Shown piece by piece: positions 4,050 to 64,000 of a stretch of DNA of 64,000 nt. A program made the translations under genes and the position numbers. How positions within the stretch are numbered: position 1 is the stretch's first letter; every line of letters starts with the position of its first letter. This DNA is from Clostridia bacterium (lineage in GTDB: Bacteria; Bacillota; Clostridia; Oscillospirales; CAG-272), in contig JAFUOY010000040.1 in assembly GCA_017481595.1 (NCBI GenBank), forward strand, positions 46,260-110,259. Direction: 5' to 3'. The notes under the pieces were generated by a model that made no database searches, was not told where the DNA came from, and was given only the letters and a program-made list of their open reading frames with translations.

Positions 4050-4050
4050 T

Positions 4051-5571: not shown

Positions 5572-5600
5572 TTGACTTTTAAGTTTTAAAATTATATACT
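5572..5600 (+). promoter_or_regulatory. Promoter of the tandem glycosidase genes
   Basis: TTGACT (5572-5577) and TATACT (5595-5600) are spaced by 17 bases, about 50 bases ahead of the ATG at 5653. Confidence 0.75.
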
Positions 5601-5652
5601 TTTTTTAGGTTGTTTAACCTGTCACTAAAAATGACTGATGAGGAGAATAAAA

Positions 5653-24690: not shown

Positions 24691-24720
24691 TTGACATACG
24701 GTGCAAAAATTTGTTATAAT
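24691..24720 (+). promoter_or_regulatory. Promoter of the DUF1538-PII operon
   Basis: TTGACA (24691-24696), 18-base spacer, TATAAT (24715-24720). It overlaps the ATG at 24701, which therefore cannot be the start codon of the gene. Confidence 0.82.
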
Positions 24721-24757
24721 AAATAAAAATATGCTTCAAACGGAGTCAAGTTTAAAA

Positions 24758-47884: not shown

Positions 47885-47887
47885 ATA

Positions 47888-47918
47888 AAAAATCACGGAC
47901 ACAGTGTCCGTGATTTTT
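47888..47918. terminator. Bidirectional terminator between the Crp/Fnr and SDR genes
   Basis: AAAAATCACGGACAC and GTGTCCGTGATTTTT form a perfect 15-base-pair stem with a one-base centre, so the loop must open a few pairs. Confidence 0.9.
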
Positions 47919-47924
47919 CGTTTA

Positions 47925-48725
47925 TTAAGGACGGAGGCCCATTCCACCCTCAAGGGTGATGGTTTCGCCGTTCATATATTTAAAATCGGGGGATGCAAGT
48001 CCTACGCAGGCTCTGCCGATTTCTGTTTCGGGGTCGCCGTAGTGTCCTGCAGGGGGCATTTTAACATTTGCCTTGAAGGCATCGGGATACGCCTTTTCAA
48101 AGTTTTCAAGCTGTGAGGTCCAAGCAAGAGGACAAACCACGTTTGTGTTTATGCCGTCCTTAGCCCACTCCGTTGCCGCAACTCTTGAAAGACCGCGGAT
48201 GCCCTCCTTTGCCGCCGCATAAGAGCATTGACCGTAATTGCCGAAAAGACCTGCGCCTGATGCGAAGTTGATTATGGTGCCCTTAGTTTCCTTAAGGTAG
48301 GGATAGCAAGCCTTCATGTAATAGAAGGTAGCGTAAAGTCCCGAGTACATAGCGAGGTCAAACTGCTCAGTAGTGTGATCCTGAATTGTAACGCCGGAGG
48401 CGGATGCCTGCGCGTTGTTTATAAGCACGTCGATTCTGCCAAATTCCTTTATAGCCGCTTCAGCTACGCCCTTTGCAATATTCTCATTATCGGAGCCTGC
48501 GGAAATATCTGCGGCAAGGGCAAGTACCTTGATGCCGTAGAGCTTTTCAAGCTCCTCCTTTGCCTTTTCAAGCTTCGCTACGTTTCTTCCCGTTATAACG
48601 AGGTTAGCACCCTCCTTTGCATATGCTGTGGCAATTCCGTATCCTATAGAGCCGCATCTGCCATCGGAAAGCACCGCGTAGCCTGCGCCCGTTATTATTG
48701 CTGTTTTACCCTTTAAAAAGCTCAT
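47925..48725 (-). CDS. Short-chain dehydrogenase/reductase
   Basis: The 266-residue Rossmann enzyme has the catalytic SYAAAKEG (YxxxK), the preceding INFASGAG serine, NAQAS and the NNA cofactor loop. Its glycine-rich loop is unusual: after TGAGYAVLSDGRC comes GSIGYGIATAYAKEGA, a spaced arrangement reminiscent of the FabI type rather than the classical TGxxxGxG. The substrate is unknown; the operon context with GH172 and a HAD phosphatase suggests a sugar or polyol, which is inference. It is the last gene of the HAD-membrane protein-GH172-SDR operon, 22 bases behind GH172. Confidence 0.9.
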   Translation of the reverse strand: MSFLKGKTAIITGAGYAVLSDGRCGSIGYGIATAYAKEGANLVITGRNVAKLEKAKEELEKLYGIKVLALAADISAGSDNENIAKGVAEAAIKEFGRIDVLINNAQASASGVTIQDHTTEQFDLAMYSGLYATFYYMKACYPYLKETKGTIINFASGAGLFGNYGQCSYAAAKEGIRGLSRVAATEWAKDGINTNVVCPLAWTSQLENFEKAYPDAFKANVKMPPAGHYGDPETEIGRACVGLASPDFKYMNGETITLEGGMGLRP

Positions 48726-48747
48726 TTTTATTACTCCTTTATTTTCA

Positions 48748-49803
48748 TTATATTATTTCAAGCTCGTCTGCAGATGGGAGGGGCGGATATTCATCCTCTA
48801 AATTATCTGAATACCAATACGCCACGGAGGAAATATCCTCCTTAAGCGCTTGATAACGGTAATTGCTTCTCCATCCGAGAGCCTGTATTGTGACCTTAAT
48901 ATTCTCTTTAAAATACACAGGGTCCGTAATATGGAATCTGTACATATTAAAATATCTCTGGGACTTATAGGTTTCATCCGTTTTATCAACTGAGAATCCG
49001 CAATATGGTGTGGTGAAATCTATATATTTTCCGTTCACCTCAAAATCGTAGGAGCCGCAGAAATAATCCTCCGTACCCGTACCGCAAATTGAGGGGTATT
49101 CCTTATCTCCGTCAAGGTAGAATTTGATTTCTCCCTCTCCCCACCATCCGTTTGTGCGCGTGCCCCAATAAAGATACGTACCAACGTAGTGGCCGTTGCC
49201 CTTAATATTATCAAGGATCGTATATACATCCTTGTATGGCAATGGATTTACCCGTCGGAATTGGGCGTGGAAATAAAGGCTGTCCTTTGATATTTCCTTT
49301 TCCTCACAATCGATCTGATAGAAAACGTTAAAATCAAAGGGACCTATGTTTTCAAGCTCCATACGAAAGGACTTGAAATAAGGCATTTCAAAATAGCAAT
49401 TCAAACCCTTACGCGGGTTAAAGCATATGGGAAGGGAGCTTATCTGATGATATTCCTTATCGTTTGCTCCGCAGAAAAAGTCAGAAAGGGGGACACATAC
49501 CGCAGGATTTTTCTGTCCGTCGAAATAAATTCTGAGAATAAGATATCTTCCCGTACCCTCGCTTGCGTCGGTTATCCAAAAATGCTTTATAGCGCCCTGT
49601 CCCTCTACGTCAGCAAGTACGGCGGTGGTGTTACCCTTTAAAACGATATACGGATTTACCTTCCATCCCTTGCCAAGCTCTCTTGCGGCATAGGATGCGC
49701 TTCCTGTTTCTGCCATTGCGCCCATTCCCTTTTTACCCGTAGGATTTTCGGGAGAGATAGAAAAGGCGCGTATATTTTTCTTGGTCGTAAGATTTTCTAA
49801 CAT
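48748..49803 (-). CDS. GH172 (DUF2961) family protein
   Basis: The 351-residue soluble protein matches the DUF2961/GH172 double jelly-roll family: SFSPENPTG-like SISPENPTGKKG at the N-terminus, IKHFWITDAS, VPLSDFFCGAND, GTGTEDYFCGSYDF and YRFHITDPVYFKENIKVTIQALGW. Characterised GH172 members are difructose-dianhydride-type or D-arabinofuranosidase enzymes, often acting as trimers. The glutamate in GTGTEDYF is the expected catalytic residue. There is no signal peptide, so it acts inside the cell. It is followed by an SDR gene and preceded by a small membrane protein gene on the same strand. Confidence 0.88.
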   Translation of the reverse strand: MLENLTTKKNIRAFSISPENPTGKKGMGAMAETGSASYAARELGKGWKVNPYIVLKGNTTAVLADVEGQGAIKHFWITDASEGTGRYLILRIYFDGQKNPAVCVPLSDFFCGANDKEYHQISSLPICFNPRKGLNCYFEMPYFKSFRMELENIGPFDFNVFYQIDCEEKEISKDSLYFHAQFRRVNPLPYKDVYTILDNIKGNGHYVGTYLYWGTRTNGWWGEGEIKFYLDGDKEYPSICGTGTEDYFCGSYDFEVNGKYIDFTTPYCGFSVDKTDETYKSQRYFNMYRFHITDPVYFKENIKVTIQALGWRSNYRYQALKEDISSVAYWYSDNLEDEYPPLPSADELEII

Positions 49804-49822
49804 AGCTTCTCCTTTACAGATG

Positions 49823-50236
49823 TTAAAGCTTAATTTTTACAGTACATATGGCAACTGTGCAGATTCCCACAGCGCCGACTGCAAAGTCCACCCACGGGCT
49901 GACTGAAAGAAGCGCCATAATTACAGAAAAAGCAAGCATACAAGCGGCAAATATGCAAAAAAGCTTAAGATGTGCCTTTGCATAAGCATCTCTTCTTTCC
50001 TTGCCCGCTTTTTCGGCATCTTCAAACTCTATACCGTTATACCAATATATTTTGTCGCATTTATAAATTATATATGTAAGCAGAGCCATACCCACGCAAA
50101 GAATATTTATTACGATCCTTGTCGCATGCTCACTGAGGAAATACGCGCTTGCTATTGCTCCTCCTATCATTACGGAAAGATAGCAGATAAAGAACAACAC
50201 AAAGCCGCGATAGCTTTTCTTGTATTCGTTTTCCAT
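49823..50236 (-). CDS. Small membrane protein, unknown function
   Basis: The 137-residue protein has four hydrophobic segments in two pairs (about 10-31, 37-58, 90-110 and 113-134) separated by a charged helix EDAEKAGKERRDAYAK that looks like an amphipathic coil. No family was recognised. Its start codon overlaps the stop of the HAD gene by one base (TAATG), so translation is coupled. It sits between HAD and GH172 genes. Confidence 0.7.
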   Translation of the reverse strand: MENEYKKSYRGFVLFFICYLSVMIGGAIASAYFLSEHATRIVINILCVGMALLTYIIYKCDKIYWYNGIEFEDAEKAGKERRDAYAKAHLKLFCIFAACMLAFSVIMALLSVSPWVDFAVGAVGICTVAICTVKIKL

Positions 50237-50958
50237 TATAAAACCTCCTTTACTACCTTTGGAAAATCGCGGTAGTCATCTATTGTAAGGTAATTGAAAT
50301 CGGATCTGTACACGCTCTCATCGTTTCCGCCAACGCCGTAATCGTCGCCTATGTAAACCACCTCACTGTGCAAAATTCCGTTTTCCTTACAGAAAAGGTC
50401 AAGGGCGTGGTATTTATTATAGGGCTTTGGCGCCATATCGAAGGATGATGAGCCTCCGACAAACACGTTATAATCAGAAAAAGCCTCGCACACCTCGTCG
50501 TATATCAAGCGGCGCTTTTTTCTGTCGGGGTCAAAGGCGAGCTTGTCCTTCTGTATAGCCTTTGTACCGAGGATGGGGAAGGTGATGCATCCCGATACGT
50601 GATATTCCACGTTATCCCCGCGGTATTCCGTATAGCCATATTTGTTTCTGAAATAGGTAACCTTTTTCTCTATTTCTTCCCTCTCTACGGGAAAGGTTAT
50701 ATCGCGGATAACCCTCATACTCTTAGTATCCTTATCGTATTTTGCATACTGCAAGCCGTAGTTACCGATTATATCAATGGGATACTCATTCATCTGGTTA
50801 AAAATACGCATAACCTGTCCTGCGCCTACCATTAAAAGCTTGTACCTTTTTGAAAGAGCGTCAAGTATTGCCTTATGCTCCGGGCTCAGCTTCTCCTTAT
50901 GCTGAGTAAGAGTACCGTCAAGGTCCATCGCGATTATTTTTATCTTATTTTTATCCAT
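50236..50958 (-). CDS. HAD-IIB family phosphatase
   Basis: The start at 50958 (MDKNKIKIIAMDLDGTLTQHKEKLS) has GGAG seven bases upstream; the longer frame is not used. The 240-residue protein has the HAD motifs DLDGTLT (Asp nucleophile), the lysine region of motif III (GGSSSFDMAPKPYNKYHAL) and GDDYGVGGNDESV (motif IV). It resembles the Cof/SupH and eukaryotic phosphomannomutase-like HAD-IIB enzymes, which act on sugar phosphates. The operon partners GH172 and SDR suggest carbohydrate metabolism. Confidence 0.88.
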   Translation of the reverse strand: MDKNKIKIIAMDLDGTLTQHKEKLSPEHKAILDALSKRYKLLMVGAGQVMRIFNQMNEYPIDIIGNYGLQYAKYDKDTKSMRVIRDITFPVEREEIEKKVTYFRNKYGYTEYRGDNVEYHVSGCITFPILGTKAIQKDKLAFDPDRKKRRLIYDEVCEAFSDYNVFVGGSSSFDMAPKPYNKYHALDLFCKENGILHSEVVYIGDDYGVGGNDESVYRSDFNYLTIDDYRDFPKVVKEVL

Positions 50959-50999
50959 GGTCTTCTCCAATTTATATGTTTTAGCCTTTATCTGAAAAT

Positions 51000-51028
51000 A
51001 GTATATCATAATTTTTCGCTTCATTCAA
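51000..51028 (-). promoter_or_regulatory. Promoter of the HAD-GH172-SDR operon
   Basis: Minus strand TTGAAT (51023-51028), 17-base spacer, TATACT (51000-51005). Confidence 0.7.
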
Positions 51029-51037
51029 TACGGATAT

Positions 51038-51070
51038 AAAAAATACCGAGGACTATTCCTCGGTATTTTT
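51038..51070 (-). terminator. Terminator of the YcxB-like gene
   Basis: AAAAATACCGAGGA, loop CTAT, TCCTCGGTATTTTT: perfect stem with flanking A and T runs. Confidence 0.88.
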
Positions 51071-51087
51071 GCGTTAAATCAAAACTG

Positions 51088-51600
51088 TCACTGCTTTCCT
51101 TTTATTTTAATTCCCTTTGATTTAAGAAAGGAAATAAAATCTTCCTTGGTGCCGATCTCAAAGGCGTCTTTTCTGAATATATAGATCATATTTGCCTTGG
51201 AATGTAAAAGGATCAGATTTTTGGTTATTATAGCGGTTTTGAACTTATCATATTCAACCCTACTTAAAGAGCCTGTAGAGGTCGTATACTCAATATAGTC
51301 CTGTGTTACTACGGTTTCAACCTCTATTTCCTTGCCGTGAGCCTCCAAGTCACGCTTTATTACCGCATTGACCTGGCTGAAGTAGCAAAAGAATTGAAGC
51401 GCGACAAACAATGGAACTATAACGAAAACAACCGTACTGTATGACTGACCCATTATTGCCGAAGCTAAGTTTGCCAAGAAAGAAATCGCAAGCAAAACGT
51501 AGCAAAGGATCATAACCTTTCGTTTAAAATAGTAAAACCGATATATTTCCTTTGCCATTTCTTTATTTCTTACAATGGTATTTTTAAATAAGATTTCCAT
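51088..51600 (-). CDS. YcxB-like membrane protein
   Basis: The 170-residue protein has two membrane segments (about 32-52 and 57-77) followed by a soluble domain with VVTQDYIEYTTSTGSLSRVEYDKFKTAIITKNLILLHSKANMIYIFRKDAF, the pattern of the YcxB-like C-terminal domain. The role of the family is not known. It has its own promoter at 51623-51651 and terminator. GGCGGTG precedes the ATG. Confidence 0.82.
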   Translation of the reverse strand: MEILFKNTIVRNKEMAKEIYRFYYFKRKVMILCYVLLAISFLANLASAIMGQSYSTVVFVIVPLFVALQFFCYFSQVNAVIKRDLEAHGKEIEVETVVTQDYIEYTTSTGSLSRVEYDKFKTAIITKNLILLHSKANMIYIFRKDAFEIGTKEDFISFLKSKGIKIKGKQ

Positions 51601-51622
51601 AATGCACCGCCTTTCTGACTTG

Positions 51623-51651
51623 ATTATATCATGCTACCCAACGGGTTGCAA
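51623..51651 (-). promoter_or_regulatory. Promoter of the YcxB-like gene
   Basis: Minus strand TTGCAA (51646-51651), 17-base spacer, TATAAT (51623-51628). The -35 box lies inside the hairpin that follows the giant surface-protein gene. Confidence 0.7.
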
Positions 51652-51680
51652 GGCTTTTTGTATGCGCCAAGCAACCGTTG
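51639..51680 (-). other. Long imperfect hairpin after the giant surface-protein gene
   Basis: CAACGGTTGCTTGGC and GCCTTGCAACCCGTTG on the minus strand pair over about 14 positions with one bulge, 22 bases after the stop codon at 51703. No U run follows, so it may be a 3'-stabilising structure or weak terminator. Confidence 0.55.
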
Positions 51681-51702
51681 AGTATATTTTTTAGAAAACT
51701 AT

Positions 51703-54700
51703 TTAGTTTTCGTCCTCTCGTCTTCTTACGGGAGGCTCTGCAGCCATGCATAAAGGCTGTATCAAGGGATAATCCTCGGGGAAAAAGGTGTACATAAGCA
51801 GGTAGACAGCGTCATTTGAGTCAACTGTTCCGCTATTGTCAAAGTCAGCATCCTGATTTATGGGATAATCCTCGGGGAAGAAGGTATACATAAGCAGATG
51901 GACGGCGTCGGCTGACGTTACTTCTTCGTTTCCGTCAACGTCTCCTGTTTTCTCGGGCTCTTCTTCAAGCTCGGGAATTTCTTCTCTTCTTTCCACACCA
52001 CAGTCTACGCAAACATAAAGCTTTTCACCCTTACTGTTTACCGTAGGCTCAACCGTTACCGTACCTTCGTTCCAAGCATGATCAAGTTTATCAACGTAGG
52101 AGTCAACGTAAAAGTCTCCGCAATGGCAGGTGTGAGTTGTGTAGCCTCGCTCTGCGCAGGTGGGCTCAGTCACCACGCTTGTGTAGTTATGTCCCGTCTT
52201 TTCAAGGACGTTGGTTTCGTAATGGTCGCACCTTGTACATTCGCGCTTTTCAACTCCGTCTGTTGTACAAGTCGGTGCGGTTACCTCAAACCAATTGCCA
52301 AGGTTATGGCCGAGCTTATTTACATAGGAATCCGTATACGCATCGCCACATTTTGAACAAGTATGGGTTGTGTAACCACGTTCTGTACAAGTTGGTGCGG
52401 TAACTACGCTTGTGTAGTTATGTCCCGTCTTTTCAAGTACGCGTGTTTCATAATGGTCGCATCTTGTACACTCACGTTTTTCAAGGCCATCCGTTGTACA
52501 AGTCGGCGCGGTTACCTCAAACCAGCTACCAAGGTTATGTCCAAGGACTGAAACTATCGCCTGCGCCTCAAGAATTTCATTACATACCGAGCAGTGCTTA
52601 CCCTCTGTAAGTCCTGTATTAGTGCAAGTAGGTGCAACAGCTACATCAATTACCTCAGTATGACCGAGAGCTTCAAGAACGCTTGTTTGAGTGTGCTGAC
52701 AAACAGAACACGTACGATCTTTTCTTCCCTCTGTAGTGCAAGTGGGTGATTTGATTTCATTCCATTCTCCAAAAGTATGACCGAGTGGTGAAATCAACAT
52801 TTCTTCTTTTGTTGCGACGATTGTCGCCTCTGCATCAAGGAATGCGCCACCGCAAAGAGAACAAACATAATATTGATTGCGTCCGGGATATTCGCATTCT
52901 GCTTCTCTATTTCCAAGCAAATGCAAGGAATGTGTGCAATCGGCAGAATCATTCATTGCAAGCTCAGGAAAATCTGCAAATAATTGATGATACAAAACCA
53001 TCGCGCCTTCAGTCGAAGGATGATTCAAGTCAGAGGCTGCCCAACCTTCGTACCATTCGCCCGTTATATGATTCTTTACTACTGCTAAGTCAAAATCAAT
53101 ATATCGATGTCCGCTATTTACTATCCAAGCATTTTTGAGTCTGTTATTAACATTTGGCGTAGTGGGAATCGTGCAAAGAATCGGAGTTATACCGTGCTCT
53201 TTGCAAAGCTTTAAAAATTCTTCAGTCGAGGTTAGCCATGATGAATTTATTACACCATTTCTATCACCGTTGTTCATTCCCAAAGCCCAAATTGCATATT
53301 GTGGTTTATCGATAGCTATCAATTCTTTAAATTGCTTAAGACCCTGCGCTGCGCCCATTCCACCATATCCGCCTAAATATATGTCGGTATATCCGTCATC
53401 AAGCAGATACTTGGTCCATCTTGCGCTACTTGTAGTGCTGAACCAGGAATCTCCAAAGAACCAATAATCTGATTCAATTCCTGAAGCAAACCAACGCAAA
53501 TCAACGTTTATAAGTGTCGCTCCCTCTGTTGAGCAGAAGATTTCACCATTTTGTCCGTACCAATTTATTCTTTGCGAGAAATTATCATTATCGGTAGTAA
53601 TGGTAATCTGTGCACCGCTACGCTGAGTTTCTATTCGCACGGAAATCTTTCCGTCAATAGTTATGTTGTGGGTGTATTCTTTCACAGAAACGGTTTTATG
53701 CGTATTATAAACAATCACTTTTTCGGCGGTAATCTCAACGTAAGATCCGCTGTAAGCGTTTTTGCCGTGACCTATCAAAATACTGCCGTCCCCTAATTCA
53801 GACACTTTTGCTGAGAAAATTAAAGTCTTATTATGGATAGTAATATTATGATTAGTCAATATAAGAGATTCCCCATCAGCAAGTATGTCTGCATTTGCGC
53901 TTAAGTGTCCAAGCTCGTTAACGTAGGAATCCGTATACGCATCGCCACATTTTGAGCAAGTATGGGTTGTGTAGCCACGTTCTGTGCAAGTCGGTGCGGT
54001 AATTACGCTTGTGTAGTTATGTCCCGTTGCATCAACGTATTTATCCACGTAGGAATAACCGCAATCGCAGGTATGAGTTGTATATCCTTGCGCCGCGCAG
54101 GTGGGAGGAGTTACGATTTCGGTGTAATTATGGGTATGCGTAAGAATAGGAATGATCTCTTCTCTCTTTTCACCGCATATTTTACACGTATAAGTGCGTA
54201 TACCCGTTTCCTGCTCCGTAGGCTCCTTCGTTACAACACCGTTGCCCCAGGTGTGACCAAGGGCATCAACGTAATTGTCCACGTAAGAATCTCCACAAGG
54301 ACAGGCGTGAGTTGTATAGCCCTTTTCCGTACAGGTGGGATTTGTTACTACGGTCATATAGCTGTGACCTGTTTTTTCAAGTACGCGAGTTTCATAATGA
54401 TCGCATCTTGTACATTCGCGCTTTTCAAGTCCGTCAACCGTACAGGTAGGTGCGGTTTCCTCATACCAGTTGCCAAAGCTATGCTCTATCATATCAACGT
54501 AGGAATCCACGTAGGAATCGCCGCACATTGAACAGGTGTGAGTCGTGTAGCCCTTTTCTGTACAGGTGGGGGCGGTAACGGTGGGAACGTAGTCGTGGGG
54601 TAAGCGATCGGTAAAGTCGCTTCTGTAAGAAGCCGCCTTTCCACAGGGGCAGGAGTAAAGAGTATAGCCCTGCTCCGTACAGGTGGAAGGATATTTTACC

Positions 54701-57700
54701 GTCGGCAGGTATCTATGGGTGCTACTATATTGTATTCCCTTGCTTACCGCGTAGTTATATCCTGCCGTGCCGCATTTAACGTAAAGCACCACATTAGGAC
54801 AGCTTTCAAAGTTTTCTACGCCTATGCTTGTAACGGAGGCGGGGATTACCACTTTATTGAGCCTTGGAGCATTGCGAATCGCTACACGGTCAATGGTCTT
54901 TACACCCTCCTCAAAGGTTAAGGTCGTAAGATTCTGACAGTAATCAAACGCCTGTCTGCCTATGTACGTAACGTGGCCCGGGATAGTAACGTTTTTAAGA
55001 GCATCACAATTAAAGAATGCGGTTGAGCCGATGGACGTTACACCTGATGGGATAGTTATGCTACTCAGGCTTACGCAATCATCAAACAGACCGTTTGGTA
55101 TTTTTGTTATGCCCGTTGGCAAGGTGACGTTGCGAAGATTCTCACAACCTGAGAACAAATAGTCACCAAGCTTTACGTTTTGATTTTCAAAGGTTACGGA
55201 ATAAAGATTTTTACAGTCTCTGAAAGCATCGTCTCCCAATACGAGAAGGGTTGCAGGGAAGGTTACCTTTCCTAAGCTTTTGCAATAGGAGAAGGAGTAT
55301 CCGCCGATTTCAACAAGGCTTGAGGGGAAGAATACTTCCGTCATATATTGCTGTTCACGGAATGCGCTGTCATCAACGTATTTCGTGCCCTCGGGAATAT
55401 GATAAGCTCCTATTTTTGCCGCAGGATAGGAAATGAGATGAGTGCCGTCTGCGGAGAAAAGAACGCCGTCAACTGATTTATATACTGTGTTGCCCTCCTC
55501 TACTATAAATCTACTAAGAGATTTACAGCCTGCAAAGGAGGACGAGCCAAGCTTTGTAAGGGTTGACGGAATGGTAAAGGTTTTAAATCCACAATCCGCA
55601 AAGGCAGTATCGTCTATGAAAGTAATTCCCTCGGGAAGAACAACGTTTGTCAATCTGTAATCTCCAAAGAACATACTGCTTGGAACGTATTTCATTCCCG
55701 CCGAAAGAGTAGCGCTCTTCAAGGCGTAGCAGTTTGCAAATGCGCTTGCATCCACGGTCGTAACGCTATCGGGCAATACAATGCTTTCAAGAGCTACACA
55801 TTCGGAGAAGCCGCAATGCTCAATTATCTTAAGATTACTTGGCAAGGTTATGCTCTTAAGATTACGGAGATTATTGAATCCGTACTCGCGAACGGCAATA
55901 AGGCTTTCGGGAAGAACTACCTTAGTACAGTTTATGCTCCAATGGAACGCGCGTAAGCCGACCTCGGTAATGCCCTCTCCGATTATAATGGTTTTAATGC
56001 TATCCTTGTAATCATACCAGGGAGCGTAAGAGGGAGCGCCGTAGGACGGGATCTTTCCCTTGCCCGCTACGGTAAGAGTTCCCGTGTCGCCATCCAATAC
56101 CCAAGAAATATCGGGGGTTAAATTACCGGAAGCCGTAACGTTTTCAACGTATGGCAGAGTTGCCATAGGATATTTTGTATAGAAATCGTCGCTGTTGTAT
56201 TCAGCATCACGAATGTGCCAGGGGAAATTGGTTTCTGTACAGAGGAAATATCTGCAATGACCCGTAAGTCCGAGGTCCCAGGTTGCATCAATGTTGTAAT
56301 ACTTGCCGTCAAGCTTAACGATATTCCACGCGTGGTAATCCGTATCGCCGGGCTGATCCGCAATTCCTGTTATATATCGGCAATCAACGTCAAGCTCCAG
56401 CATCAATCTGTAGAACAATGATGCAATTCCCTGACAGACAACCTTTTTCTCAATTATTGCCGCATGGGTGGTGTGCTGATAATAAGAGATATTTTCCTCG
56501 GGGTGCTCATCATCCCAATCGTAATCGTATTCAATATTATCACAGATCCAATCGTAAACGCCCTTTATCTTGCGATAATCGGATGCATCCCAAAGATCAA
56601 GCTCTTTAAGAAGCATATCTATGGCAGCATCAACCTCGGCTTCCATTTCTGCCGTGCTGATAAAATTACAATTCACTGTGACTAAGCTATATACTCCGTC
56701 AGAGTCTGAAAGAACCTCGGAATTATAGTTATATCCGCCAACCATGTGAGATTTGATGTAATCGCCGCCGTGTGGGTCACCCGTATGCTCAAAAGCTTCT
56801 ATAATCGCTTTATGGAGGTCATTGCCCGTTAAAGAAAGACCGTTTACGCGAATAACTATATTCTTCTCACGAAGGATCATAGCTTCACGAAGCGCCTCTA
56901 CAAGCTCCTCAACACTATTAACACCGGGCGTCGGCTCCTCCTCGCCACAAACGGTACAAGCTCCGTTTTGGTAGGTGTGGGAGCATTCATTTACCTGAAT
57001 ATAATTGATGGAAGCATTGGAAAATCCGTGTGTATCGGTTCCCATATATCCGAACACGAAATCCTTGCCTGACAGCCAATCGGAAGTAGTTCCCTGACTA
57101 TTCGTTCCTATATAATAATCTGTCATAGCGCCAATTTCGTTGCCATCAACGTAAAGCCAGATCATATTGGAGCCGTCCTCGGCAATACGGTTTTCAAGCT
57201 TATACGTATGGAGAGCCGTCCAATCAATTCCGTGATTTCCCAACGCAATGCCGTAGTTATGGCTTCCCGTTGTTGTTTTTTCTCCCATAGCGATAAAACC
57301 GTTTGTATTGCTCTTGAAGATATATCGTGCATTGTAATGGGCATTTACATCGGTGCTTGTGAAAATTCGCGCTCCGCTACCGCCGCCCGTATTCAAAAAC
57401 GTGCCTTCACATTTCCATTCTACGATCCAAGGCTTATCATGACTCAAAACAATGGGCTTATCCAAGGAATACTTGGTTTTTGTAAAGACTCCGTTTGTGG
57501 TCGTTCCTTCCGTTTTTGTCAGATTATTGACCGTTTCACCGACGCTGACAAGATCAGTGCCGTCAAACTCAAATAAATAATCCTTGTATTCGTGAACATT
57601 TTGCGCTGTGATCACCACGTCACCAGTAACGGAATCAATAGATATAACTCCGTTATTATATACTGTACTTGTAATATCATTGCCACCCATCGTGACAGAC

Positions 57701-60700
57701 ACCTTAAGAAGGTCGCTTGCGCTCAGATTAACGATGAAAGGATCTCCTTCAAGAACGATCTTGTCCGTTCCGTAATCAGCGTTGACATCCTTAAGATCAA
57801 AGGTGATCTTACATATATCTGACTCATATTGGGTGTTAGAAAGAATACTGCTCTTTACAGCTTCCGTGATAACGTCCATGCCAAGGCGGTTAGGATGTAA
57901 GCGACCGTCACCAATAAGCTCGGGCGCATTCAACACGGTATAGAGATCAACAACGTTCACACCAAATTTGCCGCATACTGTTGAAATGGAAGTATTCAGT
58001 TCCTCCATAAGACTTGTATCGGATGCGCTTTGTCCAATGCGCTTAAAGTGGTTGAACATATATATTTCAGCATTGGGATAACGCTTGGTGATCTTATCAA
58101 GCATGATCGCAGTTGCTTCCATAGTTGTTGAGGGCGTTCCATAGCCGTTTTCCGTAATCAGCGTATCGTAATCAATATTGGCAGTTCCAAGGGTTGATTT
58201 ACCGTAGCTGAAATCATTGAAGCCCATCTGTATTATAATAATATCAGGAGTTTCTCCCGCATTATCACCCGTATTATCGTGAAGCTGTAAGCAACGGTCA
58301 ACGTAAGCTCCGACCGTTCCCGAGCGCTCCAAAAAGATGGCGCTTCCCGACCAAGAATTGTTTACAAGCAATCGCAAGTCAAAATCATTAACTAACTGCA
58401 TCCACCAAGTATCCTGCAAGCCTACCTCAGGAATAGTGTTGTTGGGATAGTATTTTACATTGTTTTTGATAGTTGAATTAGTCGTATCTGCCGCGGTTCC
58501 ATTTGATGTACCCGCGTACGTTGAAATGCTTGCGCCCAAAATCGAAACCGTTTTACCCTTAAGAGAAATATTTTTTCCGCAAGCGGTACAAGCTCCGTTT
58601 TGGAAATTGTGGCCCGTTGCGTCAACGTAATCGTCCATGTAGGAGTCACCACAGGTGCAAGTATATGTCGTGTAGCCCTTTTCCGTACAGGTGGGAGGGG
58701 TTACAACTGTTTCATAGGAATGGCTATGAGAAAGATTTTCGCTATAATAGGAAAGTAATTCCGTTTCTATGCAATCGGAAATCAGCTCCATTCCATTAGA
58801 TGTAGGATGGATCTTATCCATCATATATCCGGAATAATTTTCCCAAGTAATATCGCTGTTTTCAGCCAAATCTACCACGGGAATATCGTAATATTCTGCC
58901 GCCGCACGGATATAGGTATTATGCTTTTCCCATGCGGTTTTATCCACGGAATACAAATTCTCGGGAAGTAGCGTCATTGCAAAGATTTGAGCATTCGGAT
59001 AAGCATTACGTATTTTGTGCAACATAATACCATAAGCCTCACCAAATGATGTAGGTGTTACATAAGTTCCGTCATTGCCGACTAAACTGCTATAGTCCAC
59101 TGTACCGTCACCCACATTGCTACGGTTAAAATTATAATCATTGATACCCAGATAGACAAAAATCACATCGGGATCGATTGGCGCATTTTCCGGATTGTTT
59201 TCCAAAGTATTATCGTGGAGATTGATACAACGGTCAAGATAAGCGGCAGGAATCACACGTCCATCGCCGGTTTGTCCTCCGAAAACCTGTGAACCAGCCC
59301 AAGAATTATTCACAAGAAGCTTCATACCGCTGCGATTGGCAAAATGCATCCACCAGGTCTGATTAACACTTTCAAGCAAACAATAGCTACCGGGCTTAGT
59401 GTTGGCTATTCCCACATCATATCTATGACCATTTTTACCGATAGTTGTATTTACTGTAGCATCATTTGAATATCCGTTAAAGGTTGAAATGCTGTCACCC
59501 AAAATAGAAACATACTTTCCATCCAAAACGGTCAAAAGATTTATGAATCCGCAAACCGTACAAGTATTGCCACTATAGACGTGACCACTATAAGGAATCT
59601 CTTCTCTTCCGCTTAAAGAAGCATCACAGATCTCACAGATTTCTCCTGCTGTATATCCGACTTTCGTGCAAGTAGGTTCTTGTGTAGAAACCTTTTTGGG
59701 ACTGTGTATTAGAAAATTCTTACTGATTTGACTCAATGTTAACCAATTATTGGCGCTGGGAATCCACCAAGGAATGCAAACTGCATCCACACCATCGGGA
59801 ACGGTGATGTAGCCATTATTTGTATATTCGCTGTAAACCTCTCCTGCCGACAGGCTGGTTACTATTTTATCTCCCAGCAAATAAGTCACACGAATACCGT
59901 TAACAGAACCCATATTCTCCGAAGTCGAACCGAAAGAGCTGGATGCAATTCGATCTCCCGACTCCACAGGAATAACCACAGAAATTACATCACCATTGCT
60001 AATATCGTATTTGGTAGCTGTATAATAGCCTTTCTCAGGAACCAGAATATCATATAAATTTGTGCATCCAATAATATCCTTCGGTAACTGTTGCAAATAA
60101 GGACTTGACGTCGCGCCACAACCGGTACAAGCTCCGTTTTCGTAGGTGTGCTGTCTGTTTAAAATATAAACCTCAAATTCGCTATTATTGCTGCTATGGG
60201 GGAGATTTATAGCGGTGGCGCCCGCGGGAGCAGTTACGTAGCCGTTTTTAACAAACTCCGCATACACTTTATCTCTTGAAAGGGATTCAAGAACGCCGTT
60301 TTCGTTAAACCAGGTAATTCTTACACCGTTTGCGCTGCTACCGTTTTCGGGAGTCGCGCCAAAGGCAGTAGCAAATATTTTATCTCCCGCCTTTACGGGG
60401 AAGGTAACAGACCAGCTGTCACCGGTTGAAACGTTACCCCAGCCGCTGGCGGTGTAATATATATTTTCACGCTCAAGGGCTGTCCAAAGGTTAGTGCCCG
60501 AGCATACGTTATGGGGTAAATTTTGCAAATGACCGTCGCAATCGAATTTTCCACTTGCGGTAATTACAACGTCACCTGTAACTGACGGAATTGAAATAAC
60601 TCCGTTTGAATAGCAGGCTGCGGTAACATCGCTGCCGCCCATAGTTACCTTTACCTCAACGTTTTCACCCGAGATCGCCGTTGTAAATTCTTTTCCGTGA

Positions 60701-62637
60701 GAAATTCCCTTATAATATCCAAGGGAGCTTCTTGCGTTAGTCAAATTATTAGTAATGGAGTGAACAACGTTTTCACCCTCTGTCAATTCGCAATTTTCGA
60801 GAAGGAACTCCAGCATCTGCGCCGTTATATGATCCATTCCCTCCGCGTTTGGATGAATATTGTCGGGCAACATATCAAAGGTTACGCCCGAGTCACGAAG
60901 GTCTACGTAGGGAACTCCATAATGCTCACAAATAGCTCTGATTACGGGACCGTATTTATTAAGCTTTGCCTCGGTTACGTAGCTTGGCATTGCGTATGTT
61001 GACATTACAACGATTTTTGATTCGGGATAAAAATGCTGTAATCTCATAATTGCGGCAACGTAGGCATCCGCAAAGCTATCCCACTTGGTTGCCGTAAGAT
61101 CAACCTCCGTCGGTGCGGTGGCAGGATCAAATGAGCCAAGCTCCACGCCCTTACCCATATCGTTTCCTGCGCCAAAGAACAAGATCACGTCGGGAGTACC
61201 GTTTGCGCCCAGGTTTTTAATTCGTGTCAAGGACGCCATTGCCGCATCCTCGCCCACGTCTCCTGAGTTTCCGTCTATAAAGTTGCTTACCGTAGATCCT
61301 GCCCAGCTATCGTTGATGCCAAGCTTTGCATCAAGATCGTTTATAAGCTGCATCCACCAGGTTTCCTTTACGTCCGTTAAAAGATTATCCTGAGGATATC
61401 TTGGGCGGTGCGCCAAATTGAATCCGTCCGCCTCGGGAATATACCCTGCAAAGGTTGAGGTGCTTGCAGAAAGAACAGAAATCACCTTGCCCTCGTATTT
61501 AGCCTTGTTGGGGTGGGTATCGGGAGCTTCAATGGTGATAAAATCGGACAGGGGCTTAGTAAGGTCAAAGGATTTTGTTTCGTCGCGATACTTGAAGGTA
61601 AAGCCGATCCAGCCGTCCTCCGTAACTACGGCGCTTTCCTTGTCGGACCAGGCGCTGTCGGGGAAATATCCTAAATTATTCGTGCTGTATTCATCAGAGG
61701 TCTTTGCGCAAGCCCACTGCATCACGTCGGGATCCTTAAGGGTGATAACAGTGCCCGCCTTCAAATAATAATTGATACGGGAGCTTGTACGGCAGGGCTG
61801 ATTACTTGTTGCTGAGAATTTATTGCCCTGGATCATTTCGGGAAGCTCCAGGGGCTCGTCCTCTACAGGCTCGTAATCACGGATATGGGATTCAATAATC
61901 TCGGCAATCACCTCGTGACCCTTAGCATTGGGATGCAGACCGTCGGGCATATATTCTGCTCTTACCGTAGCATCCGTGGGGTCCAACGTGCACTCCGTAT
62001 AAAGGTCAATTACGGAAACGCCGTTTTTGGCGCAAACGGTTTTCAATGCGTTTACATAGTCGCCCAAGGTAGCACCAACGCCGTTTGGAATATTGTCATA
62101 AGTGAAATTCGTACCGAGAATTCCGCTTGTTCCACGTCCGTATCTATGTAAGGACGTAACAAACACTATCTTACTGGACTGATGCTTTTCAACAAGGGCG
62201 GGAATTATAACGTTCAACGCGCCGTAAAAAGTGCCGTCCTGAGTGTCCTCAATATTTCCAAGCGGTGTTTCATGGCCGTAATCGTTGGTTCCCATAAAAA
62301 CAACTATCAAATCCGCGGATGGTATATTTTCGTAGCGGTTTATAAGGGGCTGATTGCTCTGACCGTAGTCAGAAAATGCGCTGATACAGGAGCCGCTAAC
62401 ACCCATAGGAGTTACTGAGCCAAGCTCAAGGCACTCGTCTAAATATTCATAGTAGATCTTCTCCGTGCCAACTCCTGCGGTAATGCTGTCGCCAACGAAG
62501 ACCGCGCTTCTGCCCTCCCACTGATTTTCTTCAGCGGCGGCGGTTTTCATCGTGGCAAATATGCTTATTGGCATTGCGCCGCAGAGCATTATCAAAGCCA
62601 AAATAAGGCTGATAATTCGTTTGTTTATTGTTCTCAT
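51703..62637 (-). CDS. Giant secreted multi-SGNH-esterase protein with transglutaminase-like, LRR, Cys-rich and dockerin modules
   Basis: The ATG at 62637 has GGGAGG upstream. The 3,644-residue protein has a signal peptide (MRTINKRIISLILALIMLCG). Approximate order: SGNH 1 (40-265, GDSITAG, DGLHPNAKG), SGNH 2 (385-625, SASTSTFAG, GNDMG, IHPNAEG), a small TMGGSDVT beta repeat, SGNH 3 (1046-1285, GDSISTF, GINDYN, IHPTSNG), SGNH 4 (1364-1590, GASISTY, GFNDF, LHPNRLG), a laminin-G-like domain (1685-1880), a transglutaminase-like domain (1910-2150; Cys near 2067, His near 2101, Asp near 2116), BspA-type leucine-rich repeats (2190-2620), Cys-rich repeats, a beta domain and SGNH 5 (2925-3235, GDSW, GMNNG, LNHPSTEG), more Cys-rich repeats and a two-loop type I dockerin (3564-3635). 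All five SGNH domains keep the serine and the C-terminal His. It should deacylate polysaccharides or glycoproteins outside the cell, docked to a cohesin. Confidence 0.88.
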   Translation of the reverse strand: MRTINKRIISLILALIMLCGAMPISIFATMKTAAAEENQWEGRSAVFVGDSITAGVGTEKIYYEYLDECLELGSVTPMGVSGSCISAFSDYGQSNQPLINRYENIPSADLIVVFMGTNDYGHETPLGNIEDTQDGTFYGALNVIIPALVEKHQSSKIVFVTSLHRYGRGTSGILGTNFTYDNIPNGVGATLGDYVNALKTVCAKNGVSVIDLYTECTLDPTDATVRAEYMPDGLHPNAKGHEVIAEIIESHIRDYEPVEDEPLELPEMIQGNKFSATSNQPCRTSSRINYYLKAGTVITLKDPDVMQWACAKTSDEYSTNNLGYFPDSAWSDKESAVVTEDGWIGFTFKYRDETKSFDLTKPLSDFITIEAPDTHPNKAKYEGKVISVLSASTSTFAGYIPEADGFNLAHRPRYPQDNLLTDVKETWWMQLINDLDAKLGINDSWAGSTVSNFIDGNSGDVGEDAAMASLTRIKNLGANGTPDVILFFGAGNDMGKGVELGSFDPATAPTEVDLTATKWDSFADAYVAAIMRLQHFYPESKIVVMSTYAMPSYVTEAKLNKYGPVIRAICEHYGVPYVDLRDSGVTFDMLPDNIHPNAEGMDHITAQMLEFLLENCELTEGENVVHSITNNLTNARSSLGYYKGISHGKEFTTAISGENVEVKVTMGGSDVTAACYSNGVISIPSVTGDVVITASGKFDCDGHLQNLPHNVCSGTNLWTALERENIYYTASGWGNVSTGDSWSVTFPVKAGDKIFATAFGATPENGSSANGVRITWFNENGVLESLSRDKVYAEFVKNGYVTAPAGATAINLPHSSNNSEFEVYILNRQHTYENGACTGCGATSSPYLQQLPKDIIGCTNLYDILVPEKGYYTATKYDISNGDVISVVIPVESGDRIASSSFGSTSENMGSVNGIRVTYLLGDKIVTSLSAGEVYSEYTNNGYITVPDGVDAVCIPWWIPSANNWLTLSQISKNFLIHSPKKVSTQEPTCTKVGYTAGEICEICDASLSGREEIPYSGHVYSGNTCTVCGFINLLTVLDGKYVSILGDSISTFNGYSNDATVNTTIGKNGHRYDVGIANTKPGSYCLLESVNQTWWMHFANRSGMKLLVNNSWAGSQVFGGQTGDGRVIPAAYLDRCINLHDNTLENNPENAPIDPDVIFVYLGINDYNFNRSNVGDGTVDYSSLVGNDGTYVTPTSFGEAYGIMLHKIRNAYPNAQIFAMTLLPENLYSVDKTAWEKHNTYIRAAAEYYDIPVVDLAENSDITWENYSGYMMDKIHPTSNGMELISDCIETELLSYYSENLSHSHSYETVVTPPTCTEKGYTTYTCTCGDSYMDDYVDATGHNFQNGACTACGKNISLKGKTVSILGASISTYAGTSNGTAADTTNSTIKNNVKYYPNNTIPEVGLQDTWWMQLVNDFDLRLLVNNSWSGSAIFLERSGTVGAYVDRCLQLHDNTGDNAGETPDIIIIQMGFNDFSYGKSTLGTANIDYDTLITENGYGTPSTTMEATAIMLDKITKRYPNAEIYMFNHFKRIGQSASDTSLMEELNTSISTVCGKFGVNVVDLYTVLNAPELIGDGRLHPNRLGMDVITEAVKSSILSNTQYESDICKITFDLKDVNADYGTDKIVLEGDPFIVNLSASDLLKVSVTMGGNDITSTVYNNGVISIDSVTGDVVITAQNVHEYKDYLFEFDGTDLVSVGETVNNLTKTEGTTTNGVFTKTKYSLDKPIVLSHDKPWIVEWKCEGTFLNTGGGSGARIFTSTDVNAHYNARYIFKSNTNGFIAMGEKTTTGSHNYGIALGNHGIDWTALHTYKLENRIAEDGSNMIWLYVDGNEIGAMTDYYIGTNSQGTTSDWLSGKDFVFGYMGTDTHGFSNASINYIQVNECSHTYQNGACTVCGEEEPTPGVNSVEELVEALREAMILREKNIVIRVNGLSLTGNDLHKAIIEAFEHTGDPHGGDYIKSHMVGGYNYNSEVLSDSDGVYSLVTVNCNFISTAEMEAEVDAAIDMLLKELDLWDASDYRKIKGVYDWICDNIEYDYDWDDEHPEENISYYQHTTHAAIIEKKVVCQGIASLFYRLMLELDVDCRYITGIADQPGDTDYHAWNIVKLDGKYYNIDATWDLGLTGHCRYFLCTETNFPWHIRDAEYNSDDFYTKYPMATLPYVENVTASGNLTPDISWVLDGDTGTLTVAGKGKIPSYGAPSYAPWYDYKDSIKTIIIGEGITEVGLRAFHWSINCTKVVLPESLIAVREYGFNNLRNLKSITLPSNLKIIEHCGFSECVALESIVLPDSVTTVDASAFANCYALKSATLSAGMKYVPSSMFFGDYRLTNVVLPEGITFIDDTAFADCGFKTFTIPSTLTKLGSSSFAGCKSLSRFIVEEGNTVYKSVDGVLFSADGTHLISYPAAKIGAYHIPEGTKYVDDSAFREQQYMTEVFFPSSLVEIGGYSFSYCKSLGKVTFPATLLVLGDDAFRDCKNLYSVTFENQNVKLGDYLFSGCENLRNVTLPTGITKIPNGLFDDCVSLSSITIPSGVTSIGSTAFFNCDALKNVTIPGHVTYIGRQAFDYCQNLTTLTFEEGVKTIDRVAIRNAPRLNKVVIPASVTSIGVENFESCPNVVLYVKCGTAGYNYAVSKGIQYSSTHRYLPTVKYPSTCTEQGYTLYSCPCGKAASYRSDFTDRLPHDYVPTVTAPTCTEKGYTTHTCSMCGDSYVDSYVDMIEHSFGNWYEETAPTCTVDGLEKRECTRCDHYETRVLEKTGHSYMTVVTNPTCTEKGYTTHACPCGDSYVDNYVDALGHTWGNGVVTKEPTEQETGIRTYTCKICGEKREEIIPILTHTHNYTEIVTPPTCAAQGYTTHTCDCGYSYVDKYVDATGHNYTSVITAPTCTERGYTTHTCSKCGDAYTDSYVNELGHLSANADILADGESLILTNHNITIHNKTLIFSAKVSELGDGSILIGHGKNAYSGSYVEITAEKVIVYNTHKTVSVKEYTHNITIDGKISVRIETQRSGAQITITTDNDNFSQRINWYGQNGEIFCSTEGATLINVDLRWFASGIESDYWFFGDSWFSTTSSARWTKYLLDDGYTDIYLGGYGGMGAAQGLKQFKELIAIDKPQYAIWALGMNNGDRNGVINSSWLTSTEEFLKLCKEHGITPILCTIPTTPNVNNRLKNAWIVNSGHRYIDFDLAVVKNHITGEWYEGWAASDLNHPSTEGAMVLYHQLFADFPELAMNDSADCTHSLHLLGNREAECEYPGRNQYYVCSLCGGAFLDAEATIVATKEEMLISPLGHTFGEWNEIKSPTCTTEGRKDRTCSVCQHTQTSVLEALGHTEVIDVAVAPTCTNTGLTEGKHCSVCNEILEAQAIVSVLGHNLGSWFEVTAPTCTTDGLEKRECTRCDHYETRVLEKTGHNYTSVVTAPTCTERGYTTHTCSKCGDAYTDSYVNKLGHNLGNWFEVTAPTCTTDGVEKRECTRCDHYETNVLEKTGHNYTSVVTEPTCAERGYTTHTCHCGDFYVDSYVDKLDHAWNEGTVTVEPTVNSKGEKLYVCVDCGVERREEIPELEEEPEKTGDVDGNEEVTSADAVHLLMYTFFPEDYPINQDADFDNSGTVDSNDAVYLLMYTFFPEDYPLIQPLCMAAEPPVRRREDEN
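51990..52900 (-). repeat. Cys-rich repeat array, C-terminal block
   Basis: About seven units of roughly 35-45 codons of the form PTCTxxGYTTHTCSKCGDAYTDSYV-GH or PTCTTDGLEKRECTRCDHYET-EKTGH, alternating. Units near 52200-52300 and 52420-52530 are nearly identical in DNA, as are 52110-52190 and 52330-52410, so the block grew by recent duplication. Confidence 0.8.
53890..54710 (-). repeat. Cys-rich repeat array, central block
   Basis: Seven further units of the same family (for example CTEKGYTTHTCSMCGDSYVD) lie between the leucine-rich repeats and SGNH 5. Each has two CxxC or CxC-type pairs and a terminal Gly-His, a layout suggesting a small metal or disulphide knot. Confidence 0.78.
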
Positions 62638-62744
62638 ACGTATTCCTCCCGAATAGGAATTCATTTGATAATTCCGTTTTTATATCGCTTAAATGCAAAA
62701 GTGCATATTGTATTTCTTCTTTCAAAATTTATGTGATAAATTAT

Positions 62745-62774
62745 ATTATATCATATTATATATAATCATGTCAA
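62745..62774 (-). promoter_or_regulatory. Promoter of the giant surface-protein gene
   Basis: Minus strand TTGACA (62769-62774), 18-base spacer, TATAAT (62745-62750). The leader is about 100 bases and contains GGAATT/AATTCC pairing just before the ribosome site. Confidence 0.75.
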
Positions 62775-62828
62775 TAATTCAGCCGATTTCGTGCCGAGGT
62801 TTTGCTTGTCGGATAGTTTTTACAAAAT

Positions 62829-62855
62829 AAAAAAGCACCCCGTATGGAGTGTTTT
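62829..62855. other. AAAAAGCAC hairpin outside the palindromic element
   Basis: AAAAAGCACCCC and GGAGTGTTTTT pair imperfectly. The left arm repeats the terminal sequence AAAAAGCACCC of the element that begins at 62904, so this may be a remnant of a neighbouring copy. Confidence 0.5.
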
Positions 62856-62903
62856 TAAATTAGAACCGACCACTTGCGTGACGCTTAAATGCGGTAGCAT
62901 TTC

Positions 62904-63275
62904 CAAAACAAAAAGCACCCGAGGGGTATCTGCGATAGAGCAGTATAAAAATCAAAATACCTACCAACAGGAAAAGAACGAAGAATTGCAAAAATTCCTC
63001 GTCCTTTTTTCTTGACAAGCACTGCATTTGAAGACACAAATGCATATAGTGAAATGTTTTGCTTTTGCAAAACGAGAAAAAATGTGCTTCCGCACATTGT
63101 GAAATATCTCGCCTTGCTCGATGTGAAATGAAATTTGCCCACGTCCGCGCAAGCGGACATTTCACATTTGCAGAGCAAATATTTCACCGCAAAGCGATTT
63201 CACTTGCCCGAAAGGGCAAATTTCGTTGCGTACCTGCCATAGAGCAGGTACGCAGATTTGGGTGCTTTTGTTTTG
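62904..63275. repeat. Palindrome-chain element with terminal inverted repeats
   Basis: The 372-base element begins CAAAACAAAAAGCACCC (62904-62920) and ends with its complement GGGTGCTTTTGTTTTG (63260-63275). Inside is a string of short perfect hairpins: TGCATTTG/CAAATGCA, GTTTTGC/GCAAAAC, AATGTGC/GCACATT, GTCCGC/GCGGAC, ATTTGC/GCAAAT, TTGCCC/GGGCAA and GCGTACCTGC/GCAGGTACGC. They are punctuated by GTGAAAT in the left part and ATTTCAC in the right part, so the whole can fold back on itself. No credible gene lies inside. It looks like a non-autonomous mobile element or a structured RNA locus in the 690-base gap between two genes. Confidence 0.75.
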
Positions 63276-63325
63276 AGACGTGTTGACAAAAAAGATGCCA
63301 ACTAAAACAAGAATTTTTTAATGAA

Positions 63326-64000
63326 TTACTTTTCGGCTTCAATTTCGGATTTCAACTGTTGCTTCTTTGCCAAGAGCGTTTGCTCAATGGCTGCGATATC
63401 CTCAGCGTGAGCGCTTTCAAATTCCGCAAAGAACCCGTCTTTTGCCGCATTCAAATTTGCTTCGATCTCGGAAGCCTTTTCCTGAAGCTTTGCTTCAATA
63501 TTTTCATCAAACAAGGTATCCTCGAGCTCGATAAGCTTGGCTTCTGCCTGTCTGAGCTTTGCGATCAATGTTTCAAACGATGCGTTAAGATCAGTGCCTA
63601 TCTTCTCGTATGCCGCAAGCATCTTGTTGTAATTTTCTTCGGTCAACTGAAGCGTTACGGTTGCGGACGCATATTCCTCACCGTTTACGTCCAAGGATGC
63701 TGTGTAATTTTTCTGTTTCAAAAGCTCGACCTTTGCCTCGCGAAGCTTTGTCAGTGATCTTTGATACTCGGATTCGGGAGAAACGAGCATTTCGTAGCGG
63801 AAATTATCAAGCTCGGTAATTGCTGTGCTGTAAACGTCAAGCGCGGTTTTGTACGCGGTATGCGTCAAATTGTATAGTCCGCCCAGCTCTTTTATAATTC
63901 TTGCGGTTTCCTCTCTCTGTGCAAACGAGATCTTGTATTCCTTGGCAGAATAATATGCGCTTCTCATTTCTTCGGTCAAAAGAAGAGCTGTTTCTATACG
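63326..64000 (-). CDS. Coiled-coil protein of unknown function (5' end outside window)
   Basis: The minus-strand frame is open from the window edge to the stop at 63326, giving at least 224 residues; a TTG at 63979 is unlikely to be the start because the frame continues upstream without a stop. The sequence is highly charged and helical: AREETARIIKELGG-like heptads, a short beta insert SLDVNGEEYASATVTLQLTEENY, and a long Ala/Glu/Lys/Leu coiled coil (LRQAEAKLIELEDTLFDENIEAKLQEKASEIEANLNAAK) ending QQLKSEIEAEK. No enzyme motif is visible. The family was not recognised. It is followed by the palindromic element. Confidence 0.65.
   Translation of the reverse strand, partial: RIETALLLTEEMRSAYYSAKEYKISFAQREETARIIKELGGLYNLTHTAYKTALDVYSTAITELDNFRYEMLVSPESEYQRSLTKLREAKVELLKQKNYTASLDVNGEEYASATVTLQLTEENYNKMLAAYEKIGTDLNASFETLIAKLRQAEAKLIELEDTLFDENIEAKLQEKASEIEANLNAAKDGFFAEFESAHAEDIAAIEQTLLAKKQQLKSEIEAEK

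Follow-up and report, generated by a model that had tools for sequence, protein, structure and literature searches.

The 64,000-nucleotide window analyzed here (positions 46,260 to 110,259 of contig JAFUOY010000040.1, Clostridia bacterium assembly GCA_017481595.1) carries on its reverse strand a gene for a giant modular protein with five SGNH hydrolase domains, a transglutaminase-like domain, and a C-terminal dockerin. The gene lies in a single uninterrupted open reading frame (ORF) at window positions 51703-62664, with 3653 codons and no internal stops. We consider the ATG at 62637, which the first-pass annotation had chosen, to be a likelier translation start than the one at 62664 because a strong ribosome-binding sequence lies directly in front of it (GGGAGGAATACGT immediately upstream, with GGGAGGA). 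The product predicted from this start has 3644 amino acids and a mass of 400.7 kDa, and that from 62664 has 3653 amino acids; residue numbers below are counted from the upstream ATG at 62664. The earlier description of one protein combining these three kinds of domain was borne out by the intact ORF together with Pfam and residue checks, and the domain-boundary search that it had proposed found Lipase_GDSL_2 in five stretches of the full-length protein (E 3.2e-70), Transglut_core (E 8.8e-13), LRR_5, and Dockerin_1 below its cut-off (E 0.0096). It had missed a leucine-rich repeat (LRR) region of BspA type, some 15 Cys-rich repeats, and a number of unknown modules that occur in pairs. The gene and its modules are listed from the N terminus onward.

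51703..62637, reverse strand: giant-protein gene, likely start 62637, second in-frame ATG at 62664
62529..62637, reverse strand: N-terminal signal peptide, judged by eye from a positive start and a hydrophobic run
61879..62529, reverse strand: A1, SGNH domain 1 (GDS, GTND, DGLHP); PF13472 E 2.4e-22, PDB 3dc7 E 7.3e-23
61489..61881, reverse strand: M1, linker or module, no Pfam match over cut-off
60769..61512, reverse strand: A2, SGNH domain 2, PF16255 type, SAS in place of GDS; PF16255 E 1.4e-18, PDB 4m8k E 7.2e-20 and 4nrd E 2e-18
60529..60771, reverse strand: B1, small module, 49% identical to B2
60115..60531, reverse strand: M2, module, no family over cut-off; model pLDDT 66.6
59695..60117, reverse strand: M3, second copy of the M2-type module, 42% identical to M2
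58735..59547, reverse strand: A3, SGNH domain 3 (GDS, DKIHP)
57820..58572, reverse strand: A4, SGNH domain 4, GAS in place of GDS, GDGRLHP
57589..57831, reverse strand: B2, small module
57025..57597, reverse strand: L, module called LamG-like by eye, with no Pfam family above cut-off; 71% identical to the G224 copy
56215..56997, reverse strand: T, transglutaminase-like domain (C2077, H2111, D2126); PF01841 E 2.2e-14
54685..56217, reverse strand: segment with the BspA-type LRR region (LRR_5); E 2.7e-105, PDB 4gt6 E 6.8e-48, 61.6% identical to G224 over 511 amino acids
53479..53937, reverse strand: J, module preceding A5; its low-confidence model (pLDDT 62.9) is all-beta
52930..53502, reverse strand: A5, SGNH domain 5 (GDS, GMNN, DLNHP); PF13472 E 3.5e-6, below cut-off; 73% identical to the SIG483 copy
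51706..52002, reverse strand: C-terminal dockerin with two complete Ca-binding loops

The T domain, with its Cys-His-Asp triad complete, scored 54.1 bits against a Transglut_core cut-off of 23, and the LRR region scored 347.7 bits against an LRR_5 cut-off of 27.7. The predicted models of M2 and J are both of low confidence, and a PDB search with J gave no match at E 1.

The SGNH domains retain most of what is expected of this superfamily. The nucleophile is found at Ser60 (GDS), Ser401 (SAS), Ser1058 (GDS), Ser1379 (GAS), and Ser3073 (GDS), and Block V reads DxxHP in domains 1, 2, 3, and 5 and GDGRLHP in domain 4, where the Asp stands one residue further from the His. The catalytic Ser and the His of the HP block had been assigned to all five domains in the first-pass annotation, and residue mapping agreed, placing Ser, Gly, Asn, and His in each of the five (Block II of domains 1 and 5 by eye). 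The replacement of the Asp of GDS by Ala in domains 2 and 4 was likewise confirmed. The canonical combination of GDS with the DxxH spacing is therefore confined to domains 1, 3, and 5, with domain 2 pairing SAS with DxxH and domain 4 pairing GAS with GDGRLH. Domains 2, 3, and 4 scored 67.4, 41.3, and 62.2 bits against PF16255 (curated cut-off, 29.2).

Three relatives of this giant were recovered from public genomes: a 3682-amino-acid protein of Oscillospiraceae bacterium SIG483 (locus L025), found by a scan of genome contigs, and, from a search of 394 genomes of the order, the giants of genomes G307 (frame of 4814 amino acids, protein of 4809, A2 74% identical) and G224 (frame of 2788, protein of 2782), both of which belong to families other than that of the window genome. 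Like the window giant, all three contain Cys-rich repeats and the same cassettes at 35 to 84% identity, and those of G224 and G307 also carry a dockerin. Unlike it, they contain SASA-type domains and lack A1, and the order of cassettes differs among the four. The A2-B1-M2 cassette is common to the window giant, SIG483, and G307, and A4-B2-L to the window giant, G224, and G307; among the sister giants, M2-M3-A3 and J-A5 are shared with SIG483, J-A5 with SIG483 alone, and T-LRR with G224 alone. These module comparisons left out Cys-rich repeat and LRR hits, and the LRR comparison was run separately, leaving out Cys-rich repeat queries. J-A5, though present in SIG483, had no match at 1e-10 in the 393 other genomes of the order.

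We also examined how domains 2 to 4 are related, which the earlier annotation had explained by duplication. Domains 2 and 3 are 74 to 85% identical to their counterparts elsewhere and domain 4 is 45 to 62% identical, compared with 29 to 38% (BLAST), or up to 40% (MAFFT alignment), among A2, A3, and A4 within the window protein. A tree was built from 28 domains, a set that excludes nine loci repeating the window gene, profile matches spanning fewer than 170 positions, and contained repeats. In this tree the A2 copies (98/94 for three, 97/96 with a copy from genome G424), the A4 copies (96/90), and the A3 copies (100/100) form separate groups. We therefore rejected a recent tandem duplication: the counterpart of each domain in another genome is closer to it than its neighbors are. 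Because the three types group separately and the cassettes recur in other orders, the window giant is, on these comparisons, a mosaic of cassettes also found in genomes of other families. Across the 394 genomes, PF16255, the one family counted in this census, occurred in at least 59 places, at least 48 genomes, and at least 56 frames, with at most seven candidates scored per genome; 54 of the 56 frames held a single copy, the others being the window giant (three copies) and G307 (two). A plasmid origin was not supported, as a tblastn search with A2 of 72,556 plasmid records, phage and viral records lying outside the search, returned just two distant SGNH proteins at 27 to 29% identity.

Two further ORFs were seen in these searches. 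A fragment at a contig end of G424 (L088, ORF 1-1353, reverse strand) runs from a signal-like start through A2 and B1 into M2, with the contig ending inside the M module; its A2-type domain has GAS in Block I and SWRST in Block II, compared with SWAGS elsewhere, so that the Gly is gone. Another giant, in genome G313 (L122, frame 3-7043, reverse strand), exceeds 2300 amino acids in the fetched part, has 31 CxxC motifs and, close to its start, a dockerin match, and showed no match to a window-type SGNH cassette at 1e-6.

Type I dockerins carry two 12-residue calcium loops with ligands at positions 1, 3, 5, 9, and 12. Both loops are complete in the window protein (residues 3575-3586 and 3607-3618), with ligands D-D-N-T-D and D-D-S-D-D. 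A three-row dockerin profile matched solved dockerins (4uyp, E 1.3e-6) and 31 of the 394 genomes, the window genome and G224 included. The cohesin search of the genome that the first-pass annotation had suggested found two cohesins by Pfam, on two proteins (contigs C7 and C23), and a third by our own profile only. The C7 and C23 proteins are both small; each begins with a signal-like stretch, contains a single cohesin and Cys-rich repeats, and has a hydrophobic segment close to Lys residues at its C terminus. The sole other dockerin of this kind found in the genome forms the end of a 1273-amino-acid ORF, and 29 bp separate the stop of that ORF from the start of the anchor gene on C23. That ORF (L039:5439-9260, reverse strand) consists by eye of two similar halves with the look of solute-binding proteins (no Pfam match), followed by a cohesin-like domain (own profile, E 4e-10) and then the dockerin; dockerin-based surface tethering of binding proteins would be odd. 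In G224, an anchor gene resembling both of those in the window genome (L065:190-1464) starts 15 bp after the stop of the giant. Of the 29 other genomes that matched the dockerin profile, 20 each contributed a locus for closer examination. In 7 of these 20 loci the dockerin ORF was immediately followed, in the same orientation, by a separate cohesin ORF (L109, L112, L113, L116, L118, L126, and L128), with a strong C-terminal hydrophobic stretch as well in L109, L112, and L128. A cohesin occurred somewhere in 13 of the 20 loci, in several cases inside the dockerin ORF itself. The cohesin profile was built from the two anchors of the window genome and that of G224, and these three match by construction. 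Control loci (n = 41; 243.7 kb, window included), which had been fetched for other reasons and are not a random draw, yielded a single cohesin, belonging to a locus that had earlier been recognized as encoding a cohesin anchor. Neither a multi-cohesin scaffoldin nor many dockerin enzymes were seen in the roughly 62% complete genome, which has the two Pfam cohesins, the third by own profile, and two dockerins of this kind. Taken together, these findings lend fair support to tethering of the giant to the cell via its dockerin. The earlier picture of a large deacylating machine attached by its dockerin to a cohesin-bearing surface fits the membrane-anchored cohesin proteins of this genome and the anchor gene directly behind the sister giant in G224.

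On the reading we favor, and consider reasonably probable, the giant is assembled from exchangeable cassettes, is secreted and tethered to the cell, and works as a glycan deacylase with multiple sites. After export, the dockerin would bind calcium and the cohesin of a small membrane-anchored protein, so that the 400-kDa polypeptide would stay attached to the cell surface. The SGNH domains, for which we infer esterase activity, would then strip acyl groups, such as acetyl, from complex glycans, among which O-acetylated plant polysaccharides are the likeliest target. Glycosidases are blocked by the acetyl groups of polysaccharides, and deacylation would let these enzymes act, with acetate and sugars released beside the cell. 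Domains 2 and 4 would be separate lineages kept by selection, probably differing in specificity rather than dead. As guesses, the LRR, L, M, and J modules may bind substrate or partners, the Cys-rich repeats may space the domains, and the target's protein parts may be attacked by the transglutaminase-like domain, working as a peptidase or amidase. The peptidase reading is offered because transglutaminase-like dockerin proteins of Ruminococcus flavefaciens FD-1 were counted among putative peptidases (PMC2930009). Plant polysaccharides are perhaps the substrate: a rhamnosidase-type ORF lies in the window (36683-38707), a DUF2961 gene lies downstream of the giant, and arabinofuranosidase C-terminal, GH2, and fucosidase families lie beside the C23 anchor, neighbors that weakly suggest plant glycans.

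A number of observations weigh against this reading. The closest solved relatives of A2 to A4 (4nrd and 4m8k) bear no functional name beyond GDSL-like labels, and the AxeA1 acetylxylan esterase model (NF042968) gave 32.7 bits for the whole protein and 26.2 for A1 against a cut-off of 700. The window dockerin falls short of the Pfam cut-off of 22.9, scoring 21.7 bits by itself and 16.5 within the full-length protein. For the C23 dockerin Dockerin_1 gave no match at all, and PF00404 searched against the window genome returned no match at 0.001. The cohesin profile found no cohesin in the window, as the earlier annotation had said, and no cohesin gene adjoins the giant's gene; cohesins were also absent from 7 of the 20 dockerin loci, some of them cut by contig ends. 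The G307 giant ends in a clear Dockerin_1 (35.2 against 22.9 bits) of another group that our dockerin profile does not match, and that genome, called 91% complete, has no cohesin match. In the SIG483 giant our own profile finds no dockerin, even though six cohesin matches at E 0.01 occur in that genome. Within the genus, 13 of the 28 other genomes have cohesin matches and none has a match to the window dockerin at 1e-5, so that a cohesin alone says little. The window genome itself is only about 62% complete. In two loci of the same genus, L033 (G001) and L035 (G008), inspection by eye shows a dockerin-like stretch of a different type behind a cohesin, so the genus has further dockerin groups that escape our query.

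We considered several other explanations for the giant. That it is an assembly chimera of several genes is highly improbable: the frame is single over its 3653 codons, five cassettes recur elsewhere with their internal order unchanged, and the giants that carry them are of comparable size. Misassembly through the Cys-rich repeats in particular was judged unlikely given that the gene contains no exact repeat of 40 bp or more. The protein could instead be an adhesin or colonization factor whose LRR, L, M, and J modules bind host or plant surfaces and whose SGNH domains are partly glycan binding, for which one might cite the many noncatalytic modules, the strength of the LRR_5 match (E 2.7e-105), whose best solved relative is named as a cell surface protein, and a CE2 esterase whose active site also binds cellulose, described in PMC2661963. 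This seems unlikely to us, since Ser, Gly, Asn, and His, present in all eight A2-A4-type domains and in domains 1 and 5, would be superfluous in a pure adhesin. That the deacylated substrate is host mucin or sialic acids, and not plant glycans, we regard as more unlikely still; the SASA-type domains of the sister giants belong to a Pfam family named for a sialic acid-specific acetylesterase, and a fucosidase-type gene lies near the C23 anchor, but Pfam finds no SASA domain in the window protein, and the neighbors include rhamnosidase, DUF2961, and arabinofuranosidase types.

A last alternative, compatible with the deacylase reading for the rest of the protein, is that domains 2 and 4 are catalytically dead, leaving three working domains. 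In favor of this are the replacement of GDS by SAS and GAS, the position of the domain 4 Asp at H-4 rather than H-3, and the missing Block II Gly of the G424 copy. Block I is GDS in 21 of the 28 domains examined and something else in 7, all of them A2- or A4-type: SAS in three of four A2-type copies and GAS in the fourth, the G424 fragment, and GAS, GAS, and SHS in the A4-type copies, all three of which have the shifted Asp. Against it, Ser, Gly, Asn, and His are retained in three of three copies of each type in the four giants and are invariant across their eight aligned A2-A4-type domains, and both solved PF16255 relatives likewise lack the DxxH spacing in our alignments. The ratio of nonsynonymous to synonymous polymorphism (pN/pS), a rough measure here because synonymous sites are near saturation, points both ways. 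Compared with SIG483 it was 0.12 for A2, 0.12 for A3, and 0.17 for A5, and for A2 compared with G307 it was 0.22, indicating purifying selection on A2, A3, and A5; it was higher for A4 (0.34 with G224 and 0.49 with G307) and was 0.49 for T and 0.46 for J. In the sections of an SGNH review used here (PMC9487903), the amides of Ser and Gly make up the oxyanion hole together with the side chain of Asn, the catalytic Asp and His come from Block V, the catalytic residues named do not include the Asp of GDS, and Ser-His dyads are reported in CE2. With catalysis assigned to the Asp of Block V and to Ser, Gly, Asn, and His, and with such dyads in CE2, loss of the Asp beside the Ser need not kill the enzyme. 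We infer that domains 2 and 4 may be active without it, and we consider the dead-domain alternative rather doubtful.

Two elements were located upstream of the gene.

62745..62774, reverse strand: sigma-70 type promoter match TTGACA-18-TATAAT, 12/12, with TG before the second hexamer
62836..62851, reverse strand: terminator-like hairpin upstream of the promoter match, by pattern only

This promoter match is the sole 12/12 among 44 in 47500-64000; terminator-like hairpins numbered 21 in the region compared with 15.7 in shuffles. Five same-strand ORFs lie downstream of the giant gene, with gaps of 102, 63, -1, 19, and 22 bp: a YcxB-like protein, a HAD-type hydrolase, an ORF without a Pfam match, the DUF2961 gene (48748-49803), which we take to be GH172, and a short-chain dehydrogenase type. 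The first four gaps would allow cotranscription with the DUF2961 gene, and the giant gene may be cotranscribed with these ORFs. TTTCAC- and GCAAAT-type words recur often by eye in the intergenic region at 62850-63210, upstream of the giant gene, which is perhaps a repeat element. Elsewhere in the window are a DUF1538 protein with two stretches of the domain (24701-26365, forward strand; E 2.7e-136) and ORFs of 647, 641, and 831 amino acids without a Pfam match at 0.001 (5638-7581 and 7650-9575, forward strand; 9641-12136, reverse strand). The end of the window coincides with the end of contig C24.

In summary, we tentatively propose an undescribed cell-surface deacylation platform in Oscillospiraceae-type bacteria, a possibility to which we give somewhat less than even weight. 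Its giants would be assembled from esterase, binding, transglutaminase-LRR, and spacer cassettes exchanged between families, a two-gene dockerin/membrane-cohesin tether would replace the cellulosome scaffold, and two SGNH lineages (SAS; GAS/SHS with shifted Asp) would work without the Asp of GDS. If true, a tethered, five-site, esterase-like chain of multifamily cassettes would be another way to arm a cell surface, and there would be two new SGNH lineages to characterize. The gene pair in several genomes of the order suggests that tethering without a multi-cohesin scaffold may be common there.

The first-pass annotation had called the combination of modules undescribed. We found no open-licence paper on a protein with this combination, nor any literature on the SIG483, G307, and G224 giants; relatives with the same modules do exist in public genomes, and transglutaminase-dockerin and LRR-dockerin proteins are known in R. 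flavefaciens FD-1. Dockerin proteins in the survey of that strain (PMC2930009) resemble the giant in having a signal peptide, a dockerin, and transglutaminase-like or LRR modules, and 22 esterase modules occur among 222 dockerin proteins, many of them multifunctional. They differ in that, in the passages covered, SIGN-Transglutaminase like-Doc and SIGN-LRR-Doc are separate proteins and none has five SGNH domains, and in that the organism has a full cellulosome. The anchors described here are comparable to ScaE of R. flavefaciens, a single-cohesin protein that fixes dockerin proteins to the cell (PMC4081043). ScaE is fixed by sortase, whereas our anchors have Cys-rich repeats and a C-terminal hydrophobic stretch and lie directly behind a dockerin gene in several genomes. 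Among PF16255 SGNH hydrolases, both the 4nrd and the 4m8k chains are matched by A2, by A3, and by an A2-A4 profile; these solved chains have 227 and 236 residues and carry GDS. The parts are thus known, and what is new is their assembly, the sharing of cassettes, and the dockerin/membrane-cohesin gene pair.
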